NCBI GenBank assembly: GCA_001783145.1
Contig: MFQT01000004.1
Span: 25,206 to 64,464, forward strand
Direction: 5' to 3'
Length of the DNA: 39,259 nt
Source of the DNA: Candidatus Magasanikbacteria bacterium RIFOXYB2_FULL_38_10
GTDB taxonomy: Bacteria > Patescibacteriota > Patescibacteriia > Magasanikbacterales > UBA10003
Shown: positions 4,434-27,585 of the stretch, piece after piece
How positions within the stretch are numbered: the stretch's first letter is position 1
How the letters are laid out: each line of letters opens with the position of its first letter
Program-made: the position numbers and the translations under genes
Notes under the pieces: model-generated
Seen by the model: only the letters and a program-made list of their open reading frames with translations
What the model was told of the DNA's origin: nothing
Database searches by the model: none

Positions 4434-5942
4434 CTAAGAAGAAGGGGAAGACGTATGTTCCTCTTCTTCTTTTTTGTCTTTCTTCATGATAGAAAGTTTG
4501 TCTTTAAACCAATCGGTTAAAGATGAGCGGGCAAATGTTTTGATGCGGGATCTGGCGCCGTTGGTTTTGACGAATTTTAACCAAGCCGGATTAGGTCCTT
4601 TGCGTTTTTTATCTATAATAATATCTACAATGTCGCCATTGCGCAGGGGTGTATCCAAACTATTTAATTGATTGTTAATGCGACAACCGGTACATTTATT
4701 ACCTACATCGGTGTGAATGGCGTAAGCAAAATCAACAGGTGTGGCTTCTTCGGGCAGATCTATAATATCGCCTTTGGGCGTCCAAACAAAAATGCGGTTT
4801 TGGAAGAAATCTATTTTTAAATTTTCAATGTCTTTGATATTTTTAAAAACCGTTTTTTGAATTTGTGCCAGTTCGTTAATCCAAGCTAATTGTTTAAGGC
4901 GTTTTTCTTTTTTGCCTTCTTTGTACTGCCAGTGGGCGGCAATACCATATTCGGCTTCCTCGTGCATTTTTTCCGTGCGGATTTGAAATTCCACAATTTG
5001 CCCTTCTAAACAAATGGTGGCGGTATGCAAAGATTGATAGCCGTTGGGTTTGGGTTGGGCGATATAGTCTTTTATGCGACCCGGCACCGGACGCCAAAGT
5101 TTATGCACAATTCCTAAAGTAGCATAACAATCGGCAATGGTGGGTACGATAATGCGCAAGGCCACAATGTCGTAGACCTTTTCAATTTCTTTGTTGTAGC
5201 GTAAGAGTTTTTTATATAAACTGTAAATATGTTTAACGCGTCCGTGAAAAGACACCAAAGGCACACCGGCTCCGCGTAATTCTTTTTCTGTATTTTTTTG
5301 AGTCTCTTCCAAATGTTGTTTGGATTGTTCAAAGCTTTCTTTTTGTATTTTAGTAATCCAATTAAAATTTTCCGGGTCAACATATTTAAAAGATAAATCT
5401 TCCAGCTGACCCTTAATTTCGCCCATGCCGAGGCGTCCGGCAATGGGGGCAAAAATTTCCAAACTTTCCAAAGCAATGCGTTGTCTTTTGTTTTCTGGCA
5501 AAGCATCTAAAGTTTTTAGATTATGCAGGCGATCGGCAAATTTAATAATCATGATACGCACGTCTTGAGCAATGGCAATAAACATTTTGCGCAAATTTTC
5601 TATGTAACGTTCCACGCCGCGGTATTTTAATTTACCAAGTTTTGTAATGCCGGAAACCATAGAGGAGACTTCTTTGCCAAAGTTTTTTTCCACGTCTTCT
5701 ATGGTGATGGATGTGTCTTCCGGGACATCATGCAGAAGGCCGGCAATGATAATGGATGTATCCAAGCTCATTTCGGCCAGGTATTCGGCTACAGCCAGAG
5801 GGTGGGTGATATAGGGCTCGCCTGAAGCGCGGTTTTGCCCTTCGTGGGCCTTGGCGGCATAATCATAAGCCAGGCGGATTAAATCTAAATCCGCTTCAGG
5901 GTTGTTTTTTTGGACTGTATTTAAGAGGTTTTCTATACCCAT
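4434..5942 (-). CDS. Bifunctional (p)ppGpp synthetase/hydrolase, RelA/SpoT family, without ACT domain
   Basis: Makes and degrades the stringent-response alarmone (p)ppGpp. The N-terminal HD hydrolase is intact: RASGEPYITHP (38-48), HDVPED (71-76) and DRLHN (137-141). The synthetase is also intact: GRVKHIYS (234-241), DIVALRIIV (258-266), RIKDYIAQPKPNGYQSLH (289-306) and FQIRTEKMHEEAEYG (319-333). A TGS domain follows at about 383-445 (VWTPKGD, DFAYAIHTDVG). After about 60 more residues the protein ends in a Lys/Glu/Ser tail; the helical zinc-finger and ACT regulatory domains of the usual ~730 aa enzymes are missing, so ribosome- and amino-acid-linked control is probably reduced. The start ATG has no Shine-Dalgarno and its leader contains an inverted repeat. 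Confidence 0.95.
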   Translation of the reverse strand: MGIENLLNTVQKNNPEADLDLIRLAYDYAAKAHEGQNRASGEPYITHPLAVAEYLAEMSLDTSIIIAGLLHDVPEDTSITIEDVEKNFGKEVSSMVSGITKLGKLKYRGVERYIENLRKMFIAIAQDVRIMIIKFADRLHNLKTLDALPENKRQRIALESLEIFAPIAGRLGMGEIKGQLEDLSFKYVDPENFNWITKIQKESFEQSKQHLEETQKNTEKELRGAGVPLVSFHGRVKHIYSLYKKLLRYNKEIEKVYDIVALRIIVPTIADCYATLGIVHKLWRPVPGRIKDYIAQPKPNGYQSLHTATICLEGQIVEFQIRTEKMHEEAEYGIAAHWQYKEGKKEKRLKQLAWINELAQIQKTVFKNIKDIENLKIDFFQNRIFVWTPKGDIIDLPEEATPVDFAYAIHTDVGNKCTGCRINNQLNSLDTPLRNGDIVDIIIDKKRKGPNPAWLKFVKTNGARSRIKTFARSSLTDWFKDKLSIMKKDKKEEEEHTSSPSS

Positions 5943-5946
5943 AATC

Positions 5947-5982
5947 AGGCTTAATTTTAAGCCTCTACTTATATTTATACCA
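5947..5982 (-). promoter_or_regulatory. Promoter and leader hairpin of the (p)ppGpp enzyme gene
   Basis: On the minus strand an extended -10, TGG-TATAAA (5982-5974), lies about 32 bases before the ATG. The leader between them is largely filled by an inverted repeat (AGGCTT 5947-5952 / AAGCCT 5959-5964) ending five bases before the start codon. It could be an operator or a translation-controlling hairpin. A promoter for the divergent gene starts at 5988. Confidence 0.4.
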
Positions 5983-5987
5983 GCCTA

Positions 5988-6016
5988 TTGACAAAAAGGC
6001 AAAAAAGTGCTATTAT
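5988..6016 (+). promoter_or_regulatory. Strong extended -10 promoter of the 6105 gene
   Basis: TTGACA (5988-5993), 17-bp spacer, TATTAT (6011-6016) preceded by TGC (extended -10). The expected leader is about 80 bases and ends in AAGGAG (6093-6098). The same TTGAC(A/T)-N14-TGCTA design occurs before the genes at 34006 and 38976. Confidence 0.8.
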
Positions 6017-6104
6017 AAACTGTTCGTTTATCGCCCTAAAAAGGCCTAAATGATGGTTTTTGACAACTAAAACCGCGCTAAAAAAGGCGCAAAAGGAGTT
6101 TTTC

Positions 6105-6707
6105 ATGGAATACATCCCGCTCATTCTTCTTTCGTTCCTGTTTGGGGCCATTCTCATTCCGGGATATGAATTCTCGGCGCGTTTGGTTGAGAGGACCAAG
6201 ATCAGCAAACAGGAGAAGTTTTTCCGCAAGCTGACGCTTGGCGTTGCGTTTTGGGTCCTTTACGGCACAGTGTCCTTCATTGTCCCAGACGCTTATCAGA
6301 ATATCATGGGTTTGGAAAAAATAACTACTCCCAACGTATGGATATTGTTTTATTTTATTTCTTTCCTGTTCTCGGGAATCTTTACCCATAAATACCTGCT
6401 CAAGCCCTGGCTTAACAAAAACTACCCTCCTATCAGGCGCGGTTTGAAAACGGGGGAGAAGAAGTACCAGGGCACCGTGTATGATAGGAGCCACCACGAC
6501 TTCTGTGGCTACGGATTGACCATTCGGATCAACGGAATTGATGCTGACTGTTCCGTCTTTGCTGTCCCACAGGGAATTTTTGCGGGCAGCTTTGATGAAT
6601 ATCCAACGGTGGGACAACGTGTAATTCTCTACGCTAAGGAAACTCATCGGCCTGACGTCAAGGCCTTGACCGGGGTGTTCTCGGAATACAGCCAGGAGGA
6701 GGCGTAG
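6105..6707 (+). CDS. Membrane protein of unknown family, three helices plus soluble C-terminal domain
   Basis: I do not recognise this 200 aa protein. Three hydrophobic segments (about 3-22, 42-63 and 80-100) are followed by a basic stretch (PPIRRGLKTGEKK) and a soluble, beta-rich C-terminal half (about 125-195) with YQGTVYD, YGLTIRING and VGQRVILYAKE, which read like strands of a small OB-like barrel; that fold is a guess. The ATG at 6105 is chosen because AAGGAG precedes it by six bases; an upstream in-frame start (6060) has no such site. Base composition is visibly richer in G+C than the neighbours and none of about 19 leucine codons is TTA. It is an isolated unit with a consensus promoter and its own terminator, which suggests an acquired or separately controlled gene. 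Confidence 0.75.
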   Translation: MEYIPLILLSFLFGAILIPGYEFSARLVERTKISKQEKFFRKLTLGVAFWVLYGTVSFIVPDAYQNIMGLEKITTPNVWILFYFISFLFSGIFTHKYLLKPWLNKNYPPIRRGLKTGEKKYQGTVYDRSHHDFCGYGLTIRINGIDADCSVFAVPQGIFAGSFDEYPTVGQRVILYAKETHRPDVKALTGVFSEYSQEEA

Positions 6708-22649: not shown

Positions 22650-24002
22650 TTATTTTATAATCTTCTCAATAATCTCCTTAACGTTTTGCAAGGGTGCAAT
22701 TTTTAGTCCGCTCATGGTTGGTAAATCTTTGGTTGGCGGCATTACCACAAATTTAAAACCCATTTTTTTAATCTCCATCAATCTTTTTTCAACTTGTCCG
22801 ACCATTCTTAATTCTCCTCCCAAACCAATTTCTCCAAAGGCCGCCAAATCTTGCGGCAAAGTTTTATTTTTTAAAGCCGAAGCAATGGCCAAAACTACCG
22901 CTAAATCCGCCGCCGGTTCATCGGCTTTTAATCCTCCAACCACATTAATGAAAATATCGTGCGTTTCTAAGGGTAGGCCGGTGCGTTTGGCTAAAACCGC
23001 AATTAAAACTTGCAAACGGTTTAAATCAAAACCCGAGGCGCGGCGTTGCGGATAGCCAAATTGTGTGCGCGTCACTAGTGCTTGAATTTCTATTAAAAGT
23101 GGACGGCTGCCTTCTACCAGGCAGGTGACAGCAGAACCGGCAATGGAAGAATTGCGTCCGGATAAAAAGGCTACGGAAGGATTTTTAACTTCTATAAGTC
23201 CGGTTTGTTTCATTTCAAATACTCCAATTTCATTAGTGGAGCCAAAACGATTTTTAACTGCGCGTAAAATTCTAAATTGATGATGCCTCTCTCCTTCTAA
23301 ATACAAAACCGTATCCACCAAATGTTCCAAAGTTTTGGGCCCGGACAGATTGCCTTCTTTTGTCACATGTCCAATAATGATTATTGGCGTGTGTGTAGCC
23401 TTGGCCGAGGCCATTAGTTTGGCGCAAACCGCTTTTATTTGAGTAGGATTGCCGGCTGGACCGTCAACTTCTATGGAGGAAATTGTTTGAATGGAATCTA
23501 TAATTGCCAGAGATGGTCTGACTTGTTCAATGGTAGCGCAAATGGTTTCCACATTTGTTTCTTCCAAAAATTCCAAATTTTTGGGTTTTAGTTCTAATCT
23601 GTCAAACCGCAGTTTTATTTGTTCAGCCGATTCCTCACCGGAAACGTAAAGAGATTTATTTTTTATTTGTGAAGCAATTTGTAAAACTAAGGTTGATTTA
23701 CCAATACCCGGTTCGCCGCCCAAAAGGGTGAGTGAACCGGGAGCAAAGCCGCCTCCTAAAACCCTATCAAATTCTTCTACTTCCGTTTTAAGACGTGTAG
23801 TTTCTTTACCAATAACAGTATTTAAATTTAAAGTTTTGCCGGCTGGCACGGGTGGTTTTTTATTTTTTACTCGGGAAATTTTTACTGCCGCTTCGGAGTT
23901 TTCTTTAATTGTACCCCAACCACCACACTCCAAACATCGTCCAGTCCATTTAGTGTACTGAGCATCGCATTTGGAACAAGAATAAATAGTTTGGGGTTTC
24001 AT
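22650..24002 (-). CDS. radA: DNA repair protein RadA (Sms)
   Basis: Branch-migration helicase acting with RecA in repair and transformation. The ATG at 24002 is chosen because the protein then begins as the family does: MKPQTIYSCSKC with the zinc finger Cys9, Cys12, Cys23, Cys26. Walker A GGEPGIGKS is at 95-103, Walker B AIIDSIQT near 166-173, the RadA-specific KNRFG at 250-254, and a Lon-protease-like domain fills the C-terminal third (about 275-450, LETHDIFINVVGGLKADEPAADLA). 450 aa is standard. A longer frame would overlap the upstream peptidase gene. It is the last gene of the run beginning with the ClpC-like gene. Confidence 0.96.
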   Translation of the reverse strand: MKPQTIYSCSKCDAQYTKWTGRCLECGGWGTIKENSEAAVKISRVKNKKPPVPAGKTLNLNTVIGKETTRLKTEVEEFDRVLGGGFAPGSLTLLGGEPGIGKSTLVLQIASQIKNKSLYVSGEESAEQIKLRFDRLELKPKNLEFLEETNVETICATIEQVRPSLAIIDSIQTISSIEVDGPAGNPTQIKAVCAKLMASAKATHTPIIIIGHVTKEGNLSGPKTLEHLVDTVLYLEGERHHQFRILRAVKNRFGSTNEIGVFEMKQTGLIEVKNPSVAFLSGRNSSIAGSAVTCLVEGSRPLLIEIQALVTRTQFGYPQRRASGFDLNRLQVLIAVLAKRTGLPLETHDIFINVVGGLKADEPAADLAVVLAIASALKNKTLPQDLAAFGEIGLGGELRMVGQVEKRLMEIKKMGFKFVVMPPTKDLPTMSGLKIAPLQNVKEIIEKIIK

Positions 24003-24009
24003 AATATAG

Positions 24010-25137
24010 TTACTGCGCACAGGGACCAAGCCATTCAAAATGCATAGCATCACAAACTGATTTATAATCACCTCCCCAGCCGAATCCATGTTTTTTTAGA
24101 GCATTTATGATGTCATCGGGAATATCATGCCGACAAGGCCTTTCAGTAGAGGCGTAGTTGGGGTTATCCTTTGGATTAATATCAATAGCTATAGCAAAAG
24201 AATGCAAGCTTAAAATTTTAGGATTGTTTACATTATATCGCCAATTAAAAGATCCAGAGGATGGATCTGTAATTTTATAGGTACTTGACTGTATTTCTTG
24301 AGCAGCAGCTTGCAAGGCCGAAGCCATTTTTTTATGTACATAAAAAGTAGATCCTAAAAAAGGGACAGGGGTTAATTGTTTGCTTACTTCAGTGGCAGAA
24401 GTACCAAATTCATTTAAAAAGCATTCTGAACCTTTGGATTGTCCTGTGGTGACTGGTTCCGAAGTTTCATTTCCCGGTTCTATACTTATTGGCTGTATTA
24501 CTTTTAATTTTAAACTGGTAAAATTTACCAAATCCGGATTGATAATATAAAGAATGGAGTAAGAACTTAAAAGAAGAATTAAACCCAAAATAGCCTGGGT
24601 GATTCTTTTTTTCCCCTCGTCAAGCCTTTGTTTGTTGCCGCCAGAAGTCATATATACAAAGCCGCCAAAAATAATCAGAGCCAAAGTTAAAATTCCGGCT
24701 ATCAAGAGCGCCCAGCGGTAGATGGCGGAAAAATATTGGCCAATAAAAGGCAAAGCCACGTTTCCTTGCGCGTCAATTTCTATTCCCTTGGTAGTAAACG
24801 GTTGCAGGGTGGGAATGTTTATTTCTAAACGCGGGGCTACTGGTGTAAATTTTAAGGAACCGGGCCCTGTTTGGGGATTAACGCATTTTTTTTCACCCCC
24901 CGCTAACGTTTGGCAAGCGCCCGTTCGGCACTGGATGTCTCTATCGCAGTTTTCTCCGTCGTTTAGTTTGGCCGGGGCGCAGGTGGTGGGGGATCCTACA
25001 TTTTTTCCGGGAGAACAAAAGGTGCCGGGACATTCTTCATCCTTAACACATAGGGCCAAAACAGGGCTAGTTAAAAAAAATAAAAACAAAAAAACCGCCG
25101 CGCCACAAAATATTTTAATTATTTTTTTGTTTGTCAT
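24010..25137 (-). CDS. Secreted Cys-rich fusion: secretion-pilin-like membrane segment plus M15 peptidase
   Basis: A 375 aa three-part protein. (1) Signal peptide (about 1-29), then a cysteine-rich module with eight cysteines between 30 and 85 (C30, 36, 41, 53, 64, 70, 75, 85). (2) Two hydrophobic helices (about 138-163 and 180-203) joined by GGNKQRLDEGKKRITQA, the layout of VirB2/TrbC-like type IV secretion pilins common in small-genome bacteria. (3) A C-terminal peptidase of the M15 (VanY/M15_4) type: His312 and Asp319 in LHSFAIAIDINP, Asp363, His366 and Glu368 in DAMHFEW, and GFGWGGDY between. That enzyme class cuts peptidoglycan stem peptides. All catalytic residues are present. It lies between a DsbA-like gene and radA. 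Confidence 0.82.
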   Translation of the reverse strand: MTNKKIIKIFCGAAVFLFLFFLTSPVLALCVKDEECPGTFCSPGKNVGSPTTCAPAKLNDGENCDRDIQCRTGACQTLAGGEKKCVNPQTGPGSLKFTPVAPRLEINIPTLQPFTTKGIEIDAQGNVALPFIGQYFSAIYRWALLIAGILTLALIIFGGFVYMTSGGNKQRLDEGKKRITQAILGLILLLSSYSILYIINPDLVNFTSLKLKVIQPISIEPGNETSEPVTTGQSKGSECFLNEFGTSATEVSKQLTPVPFLGSTFYVHKKMASALQAAAQEIQSSTYKITDPSSGSFNWRYNVNNPKILSLHSFAIAIDINPKDNPNYASTERPCRHDIPDDIINALKKHGFGWGGDYKSVCDAMHFEWLGPCAQ

Positions 25138-25212: not shown

Positions 25213-25869
25213 TTATAAAAGTTCTTGAATAGCCGCAACATTTAATTCTCCGGAAAAAACCTTGCCATTAACATAAAAGAAGGGCGTACCTTCAATGCCC
25301 AGCGCCTTGCCTTCGTCGTAGGCTTTTTGCACCAAAGGTCTGGTTTCCTCGTTGCTTAGGCAAGTTTCAAAGGATGTAATATCTAAATTAAGTTTTTGGG
25401 CAAAAGAAATAAATTGCGCCGCATTTAAATTATTTTGATTGGCAAAAATTAAATCATGGTATTCCCAAAATTTATTTTGTTTGCCGGCGCAACGGCTGGC
25501 CATATGCGCTTGCCAGGTAATATCCAGTGGTGGTAAAAAAGGGAAATCCTTCCAGACAATTTTTACATCTTGGGGAAATTTTTGGGCAATGGCTTTTATC
25601 TGGTCGTTAACCGCTACGCAATGGCTGCAATTAAAATCGGCAAATTCTACAATTGTAATCTTGGCATTGCTTGGTCCAAGTTGAGGGTCCGCTATGGTGA
25701 CAGAAGGGGAAAGTGCTGCCGGAGTTGCATCATTGGTGTTTTTTTGATTGCGGGTTAAAATTTCCTCCAGCGGCGGCGGAGTATTTAATCTAACAGAAAG
25801 ATAAAAAAGAGAAGCTGTGGCAACAATTAAAATAATCAGAGTCCAACCTATTTTGGTATTTTTCTGCAT
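25213..25869 (-). CDS. Membrane-anchored DsbA-like thiol oxidoreductase
   Basis: Thioredoxin-fold protein of the DsbA family acting outside the membrane. N-terminal anchor helix (about 8-27), Pro-rich linker, then a domain beginning near 60 with active site C81-S-H-C84 (VEFADFNCSHCVAVND) and the cis-proline loop GTPFFYVNG near 193-201. The inserted helical domain has one Cys (MASRCAG) and a second at FETCLSN. 218 aa is usual for DsbA_4/BdbD-like members. The neighbouring downstream product has a dozen extracytoplasmic cysteines, a natural client. The start is four bases after the propeller gene stop. Confidence 0.9.
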   Translation of the reverse strand: MQKNTKIGWTLIILIVATASLFYLSVRLNTPPPLEEILTRNQKNTNDATPAALSPSVTIADPQLGPSNAKITIVEFADFNCSHCVAVNDQIKAIAQKFPQDVKIVWKDFPFLPPLDITWQAHMASRCAGKQNKFWEYHDLIFANQNNLNAAQFISFAQKLNLDITSFETCLSNEETRPLVQKAYDEGKALGIEGTPFFYVNGKVFSGELNVAAIQELL

Positions 25870-25873
25870 AAAA

Positions 25874-27088
25874 TTATTTTAATTTTAATTGATGAAGCTG
25901 TCCGCTTTTATCGGTAAAAAAGATGACCGATTTATCGCCGGTTATCATTAAACTGCTTACGGAAGAATTGGAATCGGGGGTGGCGATTAAGGTTTTTAAA
26001 TTATTTGTCAGATCTATTTTATAGATTTGATCGGGTGTTTTGTCCGCCACGCTGGGTTCAAAACCGGCGCCATATTGTAATTCCGTGGGTACGGCGCAGT
26101 ACAGAGTGTTATTATCGGCAAAGGCGCATTTTTCCGCCCAGGTATCCACGTTTAATTTGTGGCGGCCGGTTCCGGTTTCATTTCCTTGGGCATTGGTTAC
26201 CCAAAGAGTAGGTTTTAAATCAGAACTTTGATTAAAGGTGCTGTACACCAGTTTGTCTCCTTCTTTAGACCAGAGCGGATGAAAATCCAATCCCTCAACC
26301 AAAAGAGGATTTAAAGTGTCGCCGGAACGAGTTAAGGTGATTATTTGTTTTTTACCAAAATCTTGCGGTACGCCGGTGTTGGAAAAACCAATTATTTCAC
26401 CTGCCGGAGACCAGCTTACTTGCACTTTATCGGCGTTGTTGCCCAAGGGAAAAATCGTTTGGGCGTTGGTGCCGTCCGGATTGGCAACTAACAGCCAGCG
26501 GTTGTTGTAGTCTAAGCCAATGCTTTTGGCGGCGATTTCGTTTCCATTTTTAGAAAAAGAAAAACCTTCCCAGTGCTTAGGCAGTGTCACTTGCTTGTCG
26601 GTGGTAAAATCATAAAATATTTTGGACGCATCGGGATATTCTAAAATTCCCTTATTGCCTTGCGGAGACCAGGTGACTTTTTGCACATTAAAAAATATTT
26701 TATTGGAAAGGATTTGCGGAGTTCCATCAGTTTCCACCCGGTAGAATTTTCCATCCTCGGTGTTGTAATAGTTTACTTTTTGGCCGTCGGAAGAAAGGAA
26801 AGGATTTTGAGCAGGGCTGACTGTGACTAAAGGTGCTTGGGTTAAACCGCCTTGAGCTACCGGAGAAGCGGTGGGCAGAGGAGAAATTGTTGAGGGTACG
26901 TTGGTAATGGTACCCGGAGGCAAACCAGTGATAGCTGATGGCAAACCATTGATTGGAATATTTGCCAAGGGCGCGTTAGTAATTGGCGGCGGAGCTGGTT
27001 TGCGGATAAAAACATAATAAAAAGCAAAACCGATCAATCCCACTGCCACAATAAAAAGGATTATATAAAGCAGTCGTTTTTTGTCCAT
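25874..27088 (-). CDS. Membrane-anchored TolB/WD40-like beta-propeller protein
   Basis: One N-terminal transmembrane helix (about 7-28) is followed by a Pro/Thr/Ser-rich linker (about 31-90) and a domain of repeated four-strand blades (about 95-404). Blade motifs such as VTWSPQGNKGILEY, FSFSKNGNEIAAKS, VSWSPAGEIIGFSN and PLWSKEGDKLVYST are the W-S-x-x-G-x-x-I/L pattern of TolB-like propellers. No catalytic residues are expected, so it is probably a binding or scaffold protein outside the membrane. The ligand is unknown. It sits in the clpC-to-radA run. Confidence 0.8.
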   Translation of the reverse strand: MDKKRLLYIILFIVAVGLIGFAFYYVFIRKPAPPPITNAPLANIPINGLPSAITGLPPGTITNVPSTISPLPTASPVAQGGLTQAPLVTVSPAQNPFLSSDGQKVNYYNTEDGKFYRVETDGTPQILSNKIFFNVQKVTWSPQGNKGILEYPDASKIFYDFTTDKQVTLPKHWEGFSFSKNGNEIAAKSIGLDYNNRWLLVANPDGTNAQTIFPLGNNADKVQVSWSPAGEIIGFSNTGVPQDFGKKQIITLTRSGDTLNPLLVEGLDFHPLWSKEGDKLVYSTFNQSSDLKPTLWVTNAQGNETGTGRHKLNVDTWAEKCAFADNNTLYCAVPTELQYGAGFEPSVADKTPDQIYKIDLTNNLKTLIATPDSNSSVSSLMITGDKSVIFFTDKSGQLHQLKLK

Positions 27089-27141: not shown

Positions 27142-27585
27142 TTAGCCCCAAATTATGGCGCAAAGATTTACATCAAAATAGGAACAAGTATCCTTCATTA
27201 ACATTAAAATCATTACCGGTACTAAGAAAAATAAAAAAGGAAAAATGATCCAACCAAACATTAGTGCCCCTTTTTCCAAATCGTTCATGGGCATAGTTAA
27301 ATAATCTATAATTAAAGCCCAGATATTGGCTTTAGAGGCTAAGCCGGCCGCTCCTCCGGTTGGTTTGGGTTCTTCATCCGATGATTGTCCTGGTAGCATT
27401 GAGCCGGCAGTACCTTTAACTTTAGAAATAAATTTTCCAATAAACATTTTAATTGTCAAACATAAAAGAATGGCAAAACCAACCATGCCTCCAAAAATGG
27501 GTGGGAAAAGACAAAGCCCCCAAGCTGAAATAATTAAAATTACCGTCACCACCTGATAGACTTTGTTTACTGTTTTTTCTATCAT
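27142..27585 (-). CDS. Three-helix membrane protein of unknown function
   Basis: 147 aa, not recognised. Hydrophobic segments at about 11-28, 33-50 and 107-129, with a hydrophilic Gly/Pro/Lys loop (about 55-85, GSMLPGQSSDEEPKPTGG) between the second and third. Cysteines are at 24, 42 and near the C-terminus (DTCSYFDVNLC). The start overlaps the Clp ATPase stop in an ATGA, so it is translated with that gene. The next gene starts 53 bases later. Confidence 0.7.
   Translation of the reverse strand: MIEKTVNKVYQVVTVILIISAWGLCLFPPIFGGMVGFAILLCLTIKMFIGKFISKVKGTAGSMLPGQSSDEEPKPTGGAAGLASKANIWALIIDYLTMPMNDLEKGALMFGWIIFPFLFFLVPVMILMLMKDTCSYFDVNLCAIIWG

Follow-up and report, generated by a model that had tools for sequence, protein, structure and literature searches.

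A pilin-like module with exchangeable, mostly wall-degrading enzymes at a fixed locus in Candidatus Magasanikbacteria

Across an order of Patescibacteria, a pilin-like module is kept at one fixed locus while the enzyme fused to it is swapped among mostly wall-degrading families. The case from which the analysis started is a 375-aa protein encoded in a stretch of 39,259 nucleotides (the window) from Candidatus Magasanikbacteria bacterium RIFOXYB2_FULL_38_10, a very small member of the Candidate Phyla Radiation; the enzyme in this protein is an M15 peptidase. That this enzyme part is exchangeable between relatives is our main point, and one beyond the reach of the preliminary description, which was made from the single sequence. 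Those relatives that bear names are Ca. Magasanikbacteria, which we take to belong to class ABY1.

RESULTS

A pilin module fused to an M15 peptidase

The open reading frame of the fusion occupies 24010..25137 on the minus strand, as do all the parts described here. Its N-terminus (residues 1–29, 25051..25137) is signal-peptide-like, with a KK n-region, a hydrophobic core and the sequence SPVLA, and is modelled as a helix over residues 4–22. It is followed by a putatively extracytoplasmic region (residues 30–88, 24874..25050) with eight cysteines at positions 30, 36, 41, 53, 64, 70, 75 and 85; the length of the N-terminal region and the number of cysteines vary among relatives. The conserved pilin-like module (residues 93–216, 24490..24861) contains the T4SS_pilin (PF18895) hairpin (residues 137–197, 24547..24729), as judged by Pfam, model helices and hhalign. 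The remainder (residues 217–375, 24010..24489) is the exchangeable enzyme cassette, the place of which is taken by unrelated enzymes at the same locus in relatives.

Within this cassette, a Peptidase_M15_4 domain (PF13539) was detected by Pfam at residues 306–369 (24031..24222; E 1.4e-16, 61.3 bits for a cut-off of 25). The motifs H312...D319 (H-x6-D) and D363-x-x-H366 (D-x2-H) are both complete; all seven proteins with this M15 cassette type, the window protein included, retain the D..H motif. By profile and active-site motif, this part is a complete predicted peptidoglycan peptidase. The nearest solved structure by sequence is the L-Ala-D-Glu endopeptidase Ply500 (2vo9), which was also matched, weakly, in a foldseek search of the enzyme part against the PDB (E 0.065). 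An eight-cysteine module, a helix pair and a complete M15 peptidase with residues conserved in homologues, as proposed in the preliminary description, are thus all present, as shown by the frame, the cysteines, Pfam and the motifs.

An AlphaFold2 model built from 74 aligned sequences contains two confident helices, 130–163 and 169–199, in a block with pLDDT mostly above 90. For the whole protein the overall pLDDT was 77.7 and the pTM 0.50, with linkers poorly predicted. Between the two helices lies a stretch with many lysines and arginines, which would fit a topology in which both termini of the protein are outside the cell.

The hairpin is related to T4SS pilins

PF18895 matches the fusion protein above its cut-off (E 1.6e-7, 31.7 bits for a cut-off of 26.6; 35.9 bits in the genome-wide search), and 47 of 74 related fusions match it with E<=1e-3. 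In the genome as a whole, 13 places score above this cut-off. Nine form a tandem array of small, divergent T4SS_pilin proteins adjoining a sugar-binding-protein-like gene (L009:10169-14548, contig C16). Profile alignment of the module with this array by hhalign gave a probability of 98.8% and an E of 7e-17 over 71 columns, with the glycine pattern and the loop common to both. Over the 74 proteins, residues P102, P109, F114, G125, G159, G185, L186, Y193, N200 and P201 are at least 90% conserved. The classical TrbC family (PF04956) gave no Pfam match to the window fusion protein and sub-cut-off matches to two small pilins encoded in the same genome. A foldseek search of the helices against the PDB returned a conjugation pilus (8dfu) without significance (E 8.7).

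Homology of the hairpin to pilins is therefore supported at the level of profiles, and the hairpin might assemble into a pilus. The 'VirB2/TrbC-like' helix pair of the preliminary description was thus named correctly as to its kind, the direct match being to PF18895 and not to classical TrbC. A simple anchor without similarity to pilins, which that description had set against its own reading, does not agree with the profile homology. A chance pair of hydrophobic stretches was likewise ruled out by the PF18895 score and the alignment to the genome's own pilins. An ordinary small pilin consists essentially of the hairpin; with 375 aa and regions on both sides of it, the window protein is a pilin-domain protein instead.

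The module is kept at one locus and carries different enzymes

At this locus the gene order is PD40 protein – DsbA-like – fusion gene(s) – RadA. In the window, all on the minus strand, the upstream neighbour encodes a DsbA-like thioredoxin-fold oxidoreductase (25213..25869; PF13462 E 1.9e-28, PF01323 E 2.2e-23), next to a membrane-anchored, beta-propeller-like PD40 protein (25874..27088; PF07676 E 0.005, below cut-off). The downstream gene (22650..24002, start codon read at 24002) we take to be radA from general knowledge of the family. Between the PD40 gene and a ClpC-like gene, a 147-aa membrane protein without Pfam match (27142-27585) was detected in close relatives only.

In the family's three other genomes, this locus encodes the same N-terminal part, with an amidase or a lytic transglycosylase in place of the M15 peptidase. 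A profile of the module (~120 aa) matched 78 of the 86 genomes of the order and 53 of its 57 genera (E<=1e-18), nearly all matches lying in long reading frames, so that a one-off fusion or a gene-calling error was ruled out. The pairing of pilin and M15 domains, for which the preliminary description had suggested a domain search, is accordingly both real and recurrent.

We surveyed the cassettes of 74 complete fusion proteins from 60 loci, window included. These loci are flanked by the DsbA-like gene in 55, the PD40 gene in 54 and RadA in 48 of the 60 cases; where a flanking gene is absent, the locus often lies at a contig end. The C-termini fall into 13 sequence clusters. Pfam recognised SLT (16 proteins), Amidase_2 (11), VanY (11), C39_2 (8), M15_4 (5), M15 (5), M23 (2) and GH18 (1) domains, together with a GDSL esterase domain in eight proteins, N-terminal in the case checked. 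Active-site motifs are largely retained, E-x-W-H-F-[EQ] for instance in 16/16 VanY-type members. Some C-termini have no Pfam match, and the GH18 and alpha/beta-hydrolase-like cassettes are not obvious wall enzymes. The GH18 (chitinase/endoglycosidase-like) fusion, at L078:3544-5112, may point to another kind of wall, or a glycoprotein, as its target.

The window's own genome encodes a second pilin-fusion protein of 472 aa beside a DsbA-like gene (L011:4217-5635 and 5825-6532, contig C2); many genomes of the order contain matches of similar length.

Close pairs with different enzymes

The strongest evidence for exchange came from tandem or congeneric copies with nearly identical modules. In the tandem pair of L105, the modules are 98% identical and carry an alpha/beta-hydrolase-like and a C39 domain, respectively. 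Modules of L106 and L108 (96% identical) are followed by SLT and by an unrelated, unassigned domain, those of L056 and L057 (93%) by SLT and amidase, those of L064 and L065 (93%) by C39 and VanY, and those of the L081 pair (92%) by C39 and SLT. In 5/5 pairs tested, DNA homology stops at most 4 residues from the C-terminal edge of the module.

We also mapped enzyme classes on trees. The module tree required 49 class changes (shuffled labels: mean 49.7, range 44-55), a count inflated by the poor resolution of this tree, in which 31 of 71 inner forks are open. The PD40 tree required 26 changes compared with 25.7 after shuffling, and the RadA tree 21 compared with 20.4. Enzyme class is thus distributed on module and flank trees like random labels. 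Since they do not depend on the poorly resolved module tree, the close pairs weigh more. Assembly chimeras are an unlikely source of the swapping, as different cassettes were found in dozens of genomes, among them genomes with no more than two contigs (G066, G099), and copies in tandem on the same contig are unlike each other.

Distribution beyond the order

Across the class, the module profile matched 356 of 381 genomes (E<=1e-12), a count that includes other pilin-domain proteins. Twenty loci with high scores were sampled from other orders, and 19 of them had one or more of the locus neighbours close by, in the same layout. A further 38 fusions, a few of them from other classes, carry SLT, M15, M23, VanY, M15_4, C39 and Glucosaminidase domains. 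Over the phylum, 59 of 144 matched, mostly through small pilins, and a few fusion loci keep the PD40/RadA neighbours. The cassette locus is therefore strongest in the window's class, outside of which mostly small pilins or other fusions were found.

In phage and plasmid sets, the nearest relatives of the window's M15 cassette are M15 domains inside phage tape-measure proteins, where they plausibly would serve to breach the wall from outside. These tape-measure relatives belong to Rhizobium phages (records H1-H8).

T4SS genes in the same genome

The preliminary description had called for a check of VirB4, VirB6 and VirD4 genes. Contig C2 (15.4-23.3 kb) holds a VirB4-like ATPase (P-loop_TraG, E 1.5e-29) and a PrgI protein, the VirB3 homologue (E 1.5e-8), both above the Pfam cut-offs, together with a polytopic, 1009-aa VirB6-like protein matching TrbL below cut-off (E 4e-4). 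On contig C15 there is a VirD4-like match that exceeds the cut-off (E 4e-6). VirB4 and VirD4 were thus found, with VirB6 represented by a sub-cut-off match. VirB4 is present in 77 of the 86 genomes of the order. The fusion gene is on contig C4 and is therefore not encoded with virB4. No SLT domain of the VirB1 type was detected in the genome, the window enzyme being an M15 peptidase; two M23 proteins are encoded. A second, divergent VirB4-like ATPase (G000:C8:463-2139, 805-aa frame, 26% identity) was observed in this genome and also in G043, G049 and G055.

DISCUSSION

What the carrier may do

We propose, at a probability of about 0.5, that the module is a pilin-derived carrier, linked to the T4SS, on which interchangeable wall hydrolases are displayed at the cell exterior; their most likely task would be to breach the wall of a host with which the cell is in contact. 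The fusion protein would use Sec for export, and the DsbA-like enzyme encoded beside it, a plausible disulfide maker, would oxidise the cysteine-rich region. The hairpin would insert with both ends outside and the lysine/arginine-rich loop inside. The fusion could then become a minor component among the T4SS pilins, or remain at the base of the T4SS, so that the enzyme would be held outside the cell and cut peptidoglycan at the contact site. The target would most likely be the wall of the host cell to which the epibiont attaches, and enzyme exchange would track differences between host walls. No host of this lineage is known to us. Action on a host wall is favoured by the observation that the enzyme varies within a genus, across which the wall of the producing cell probably does not vary, and that holder, disulfide enzyme and T4SS are retained. 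On the other side, large domains flanking the hairpin may hinder packing into a filament, the fusion gene is not beside virB4, and a few cassettes are not obvious wall enzymes.

The main rival, which we regard as unlikely, is that the enzyme acts on the cell's own wall, opening it locally for passage of the T4SS or pilus, with the hairpin targeting it to the machine. VirB1 plays such a role in other T4SSs, and its known Gram-positive homologues are all membrane-anchored with extracellular enzyme domains (PMC12857230). A survey of the T4SS in 3,035 Patescibacteria genomes recorded, in its accessible part, VirB2 arrays and few VirB1 homologues, and considered that the pilus may not need VirB1 (PMC12102498); in favour, too, is the absence of any SLT domain from the window's genome. 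This VirB1-like role is at odds with the change of enzyme class between species of one genus, among which the bacterium's wall itself probably does not differ, and with the position of the fusion gene outside the virB4 cluster, and the two M23 proteins could serve the cell's own wall.

Rather improbable is a reading in which the hairpin, once that of a pilin, now serves as an all-purpose two-helix membrane anchor for extracellular enzymes and adhesins and is no longer linked to a T4SS; it arises since the hairpin also anchors adhesin-like giants. In the same genome, N-terminal T4SS_pilin hairpins are found on a 2928-aa protein with TIG, Big_5 and LamG-like lectin domains (L010:2287-11073, minus strand, contig C11) and on an adhesin-like, 657-aa Big_5 protein (L010:11081-13054, same strand and contig), and elsewhere in the phylum the hairpin occurs on GH5 and PKD proteins. 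In the GH5 cellulase-like proteins (L181:4543-8295 and L183:718-3720) it is C-terminal, so that the parts are arranged the other way round. Drift would be expected of a simple anchor, whereas conservation of at least 90% over the 74 module proteins extends beyond hydrophobicity and the loop and glycine pattern are shared with the pilin array. Least probable of all is a polymorphic antibacterial toxin or released effector, in which the module would deliver a variable C-terminal toxin against competitors. The constant N-terminal part, swapped C-termini and sharp junctions have the layout of such toxins. However, no changing immunity gene accompanies the cassettes, the DsbA and RadA neighbours being constant across loci; nucleases and pore formers are absent among recognised cassettes, and the hairpin should hold the protein at the membrane.

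Relation to known systems

The fusion shares parts with several described systems. Patescibacterial VirB2-like T4SS_pilin (PF18895) proteins and their arrays, as covered in the accessible part of the T4SS survey (PMC12102498), have a homologous hairpin, and the window's genome has its own nine-gene array. Those small proteins (114-181 aa) have no catalytic domains, whereas in the fusion the hairpin is internal, preceded by the cysteine-rich region and followed by the enzyme. Gram-positive VirB1-type hydrolases (PrgK, pIP501 TraG, Tn916 Orf14) belong to monoderm-type T4SSs and, as predicted for the fusion, are membrane-held and extracellular; in contrast to these, the fusion is anchored by a pilin hairpin, is not encoded with virB4 and has its enzyme family swapped between close relatives. 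The M15 endolysins, such as Ply500 of a Listeria phage (2vo9), and the tape-measure M15 domains share the catalytic family and motifs and gave the best PDB and phage matches, but the compared structures and phage proteins have no pilin module. Polymorphic toxin systems also combine a constant delivery part with a swapped C-terminal enzyme; unlike in these, no immunity genes were seen at the fusion loci, and most of the enzymes recognised are wall hydrolases, held on a membrane hairpin. Exchange of peptidases is known from the same phylum, in a patescibacterial operon where two unrelated peptidases alternate on one membrane-anchored coiled coil (PMC12419801); the anchor there is not a pilin and the context is VanZ/ABC.

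The preliminary description knew of no protein with this combination, and our literature search, outside of which lay supplementary tables, most subscription papers and a key Saccharibacteria genetics study, found no description of a pilin-hydrolase fusion either. On PF18895, it returned the T4SS survey alone, the accessible part of which does not mention such fusions (PMC12102498). The fusion is apparently undescribed, the absence of an earlier description being not proven.

Significance

The locus touches on two open questions: how Patescibacteria, which make up a large share of bacterial diversity, pass the host wall, and what stands in for VirB1, which their T4SS mostly lacks, a point left open by the 2025 survey in its accessible part (PMC12102498). 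It provides concrete candidates for wall cutters in almost all genomes of an order and, probably, in the greater part of a class, and the same holder with different enzymes amounts to a natural experiment. More tentatively than for the carrier itself, we suggest that a specialised subclass of T4SS pilins may serve as a tool holder in host-dependent ultrasmall bacteria, the hydrolase being exchanged to match the wall of the current host. If enzyme type tracks host wall chemistry, the cassette would report wall type and would help to predict the hosts of uncultured lineages.
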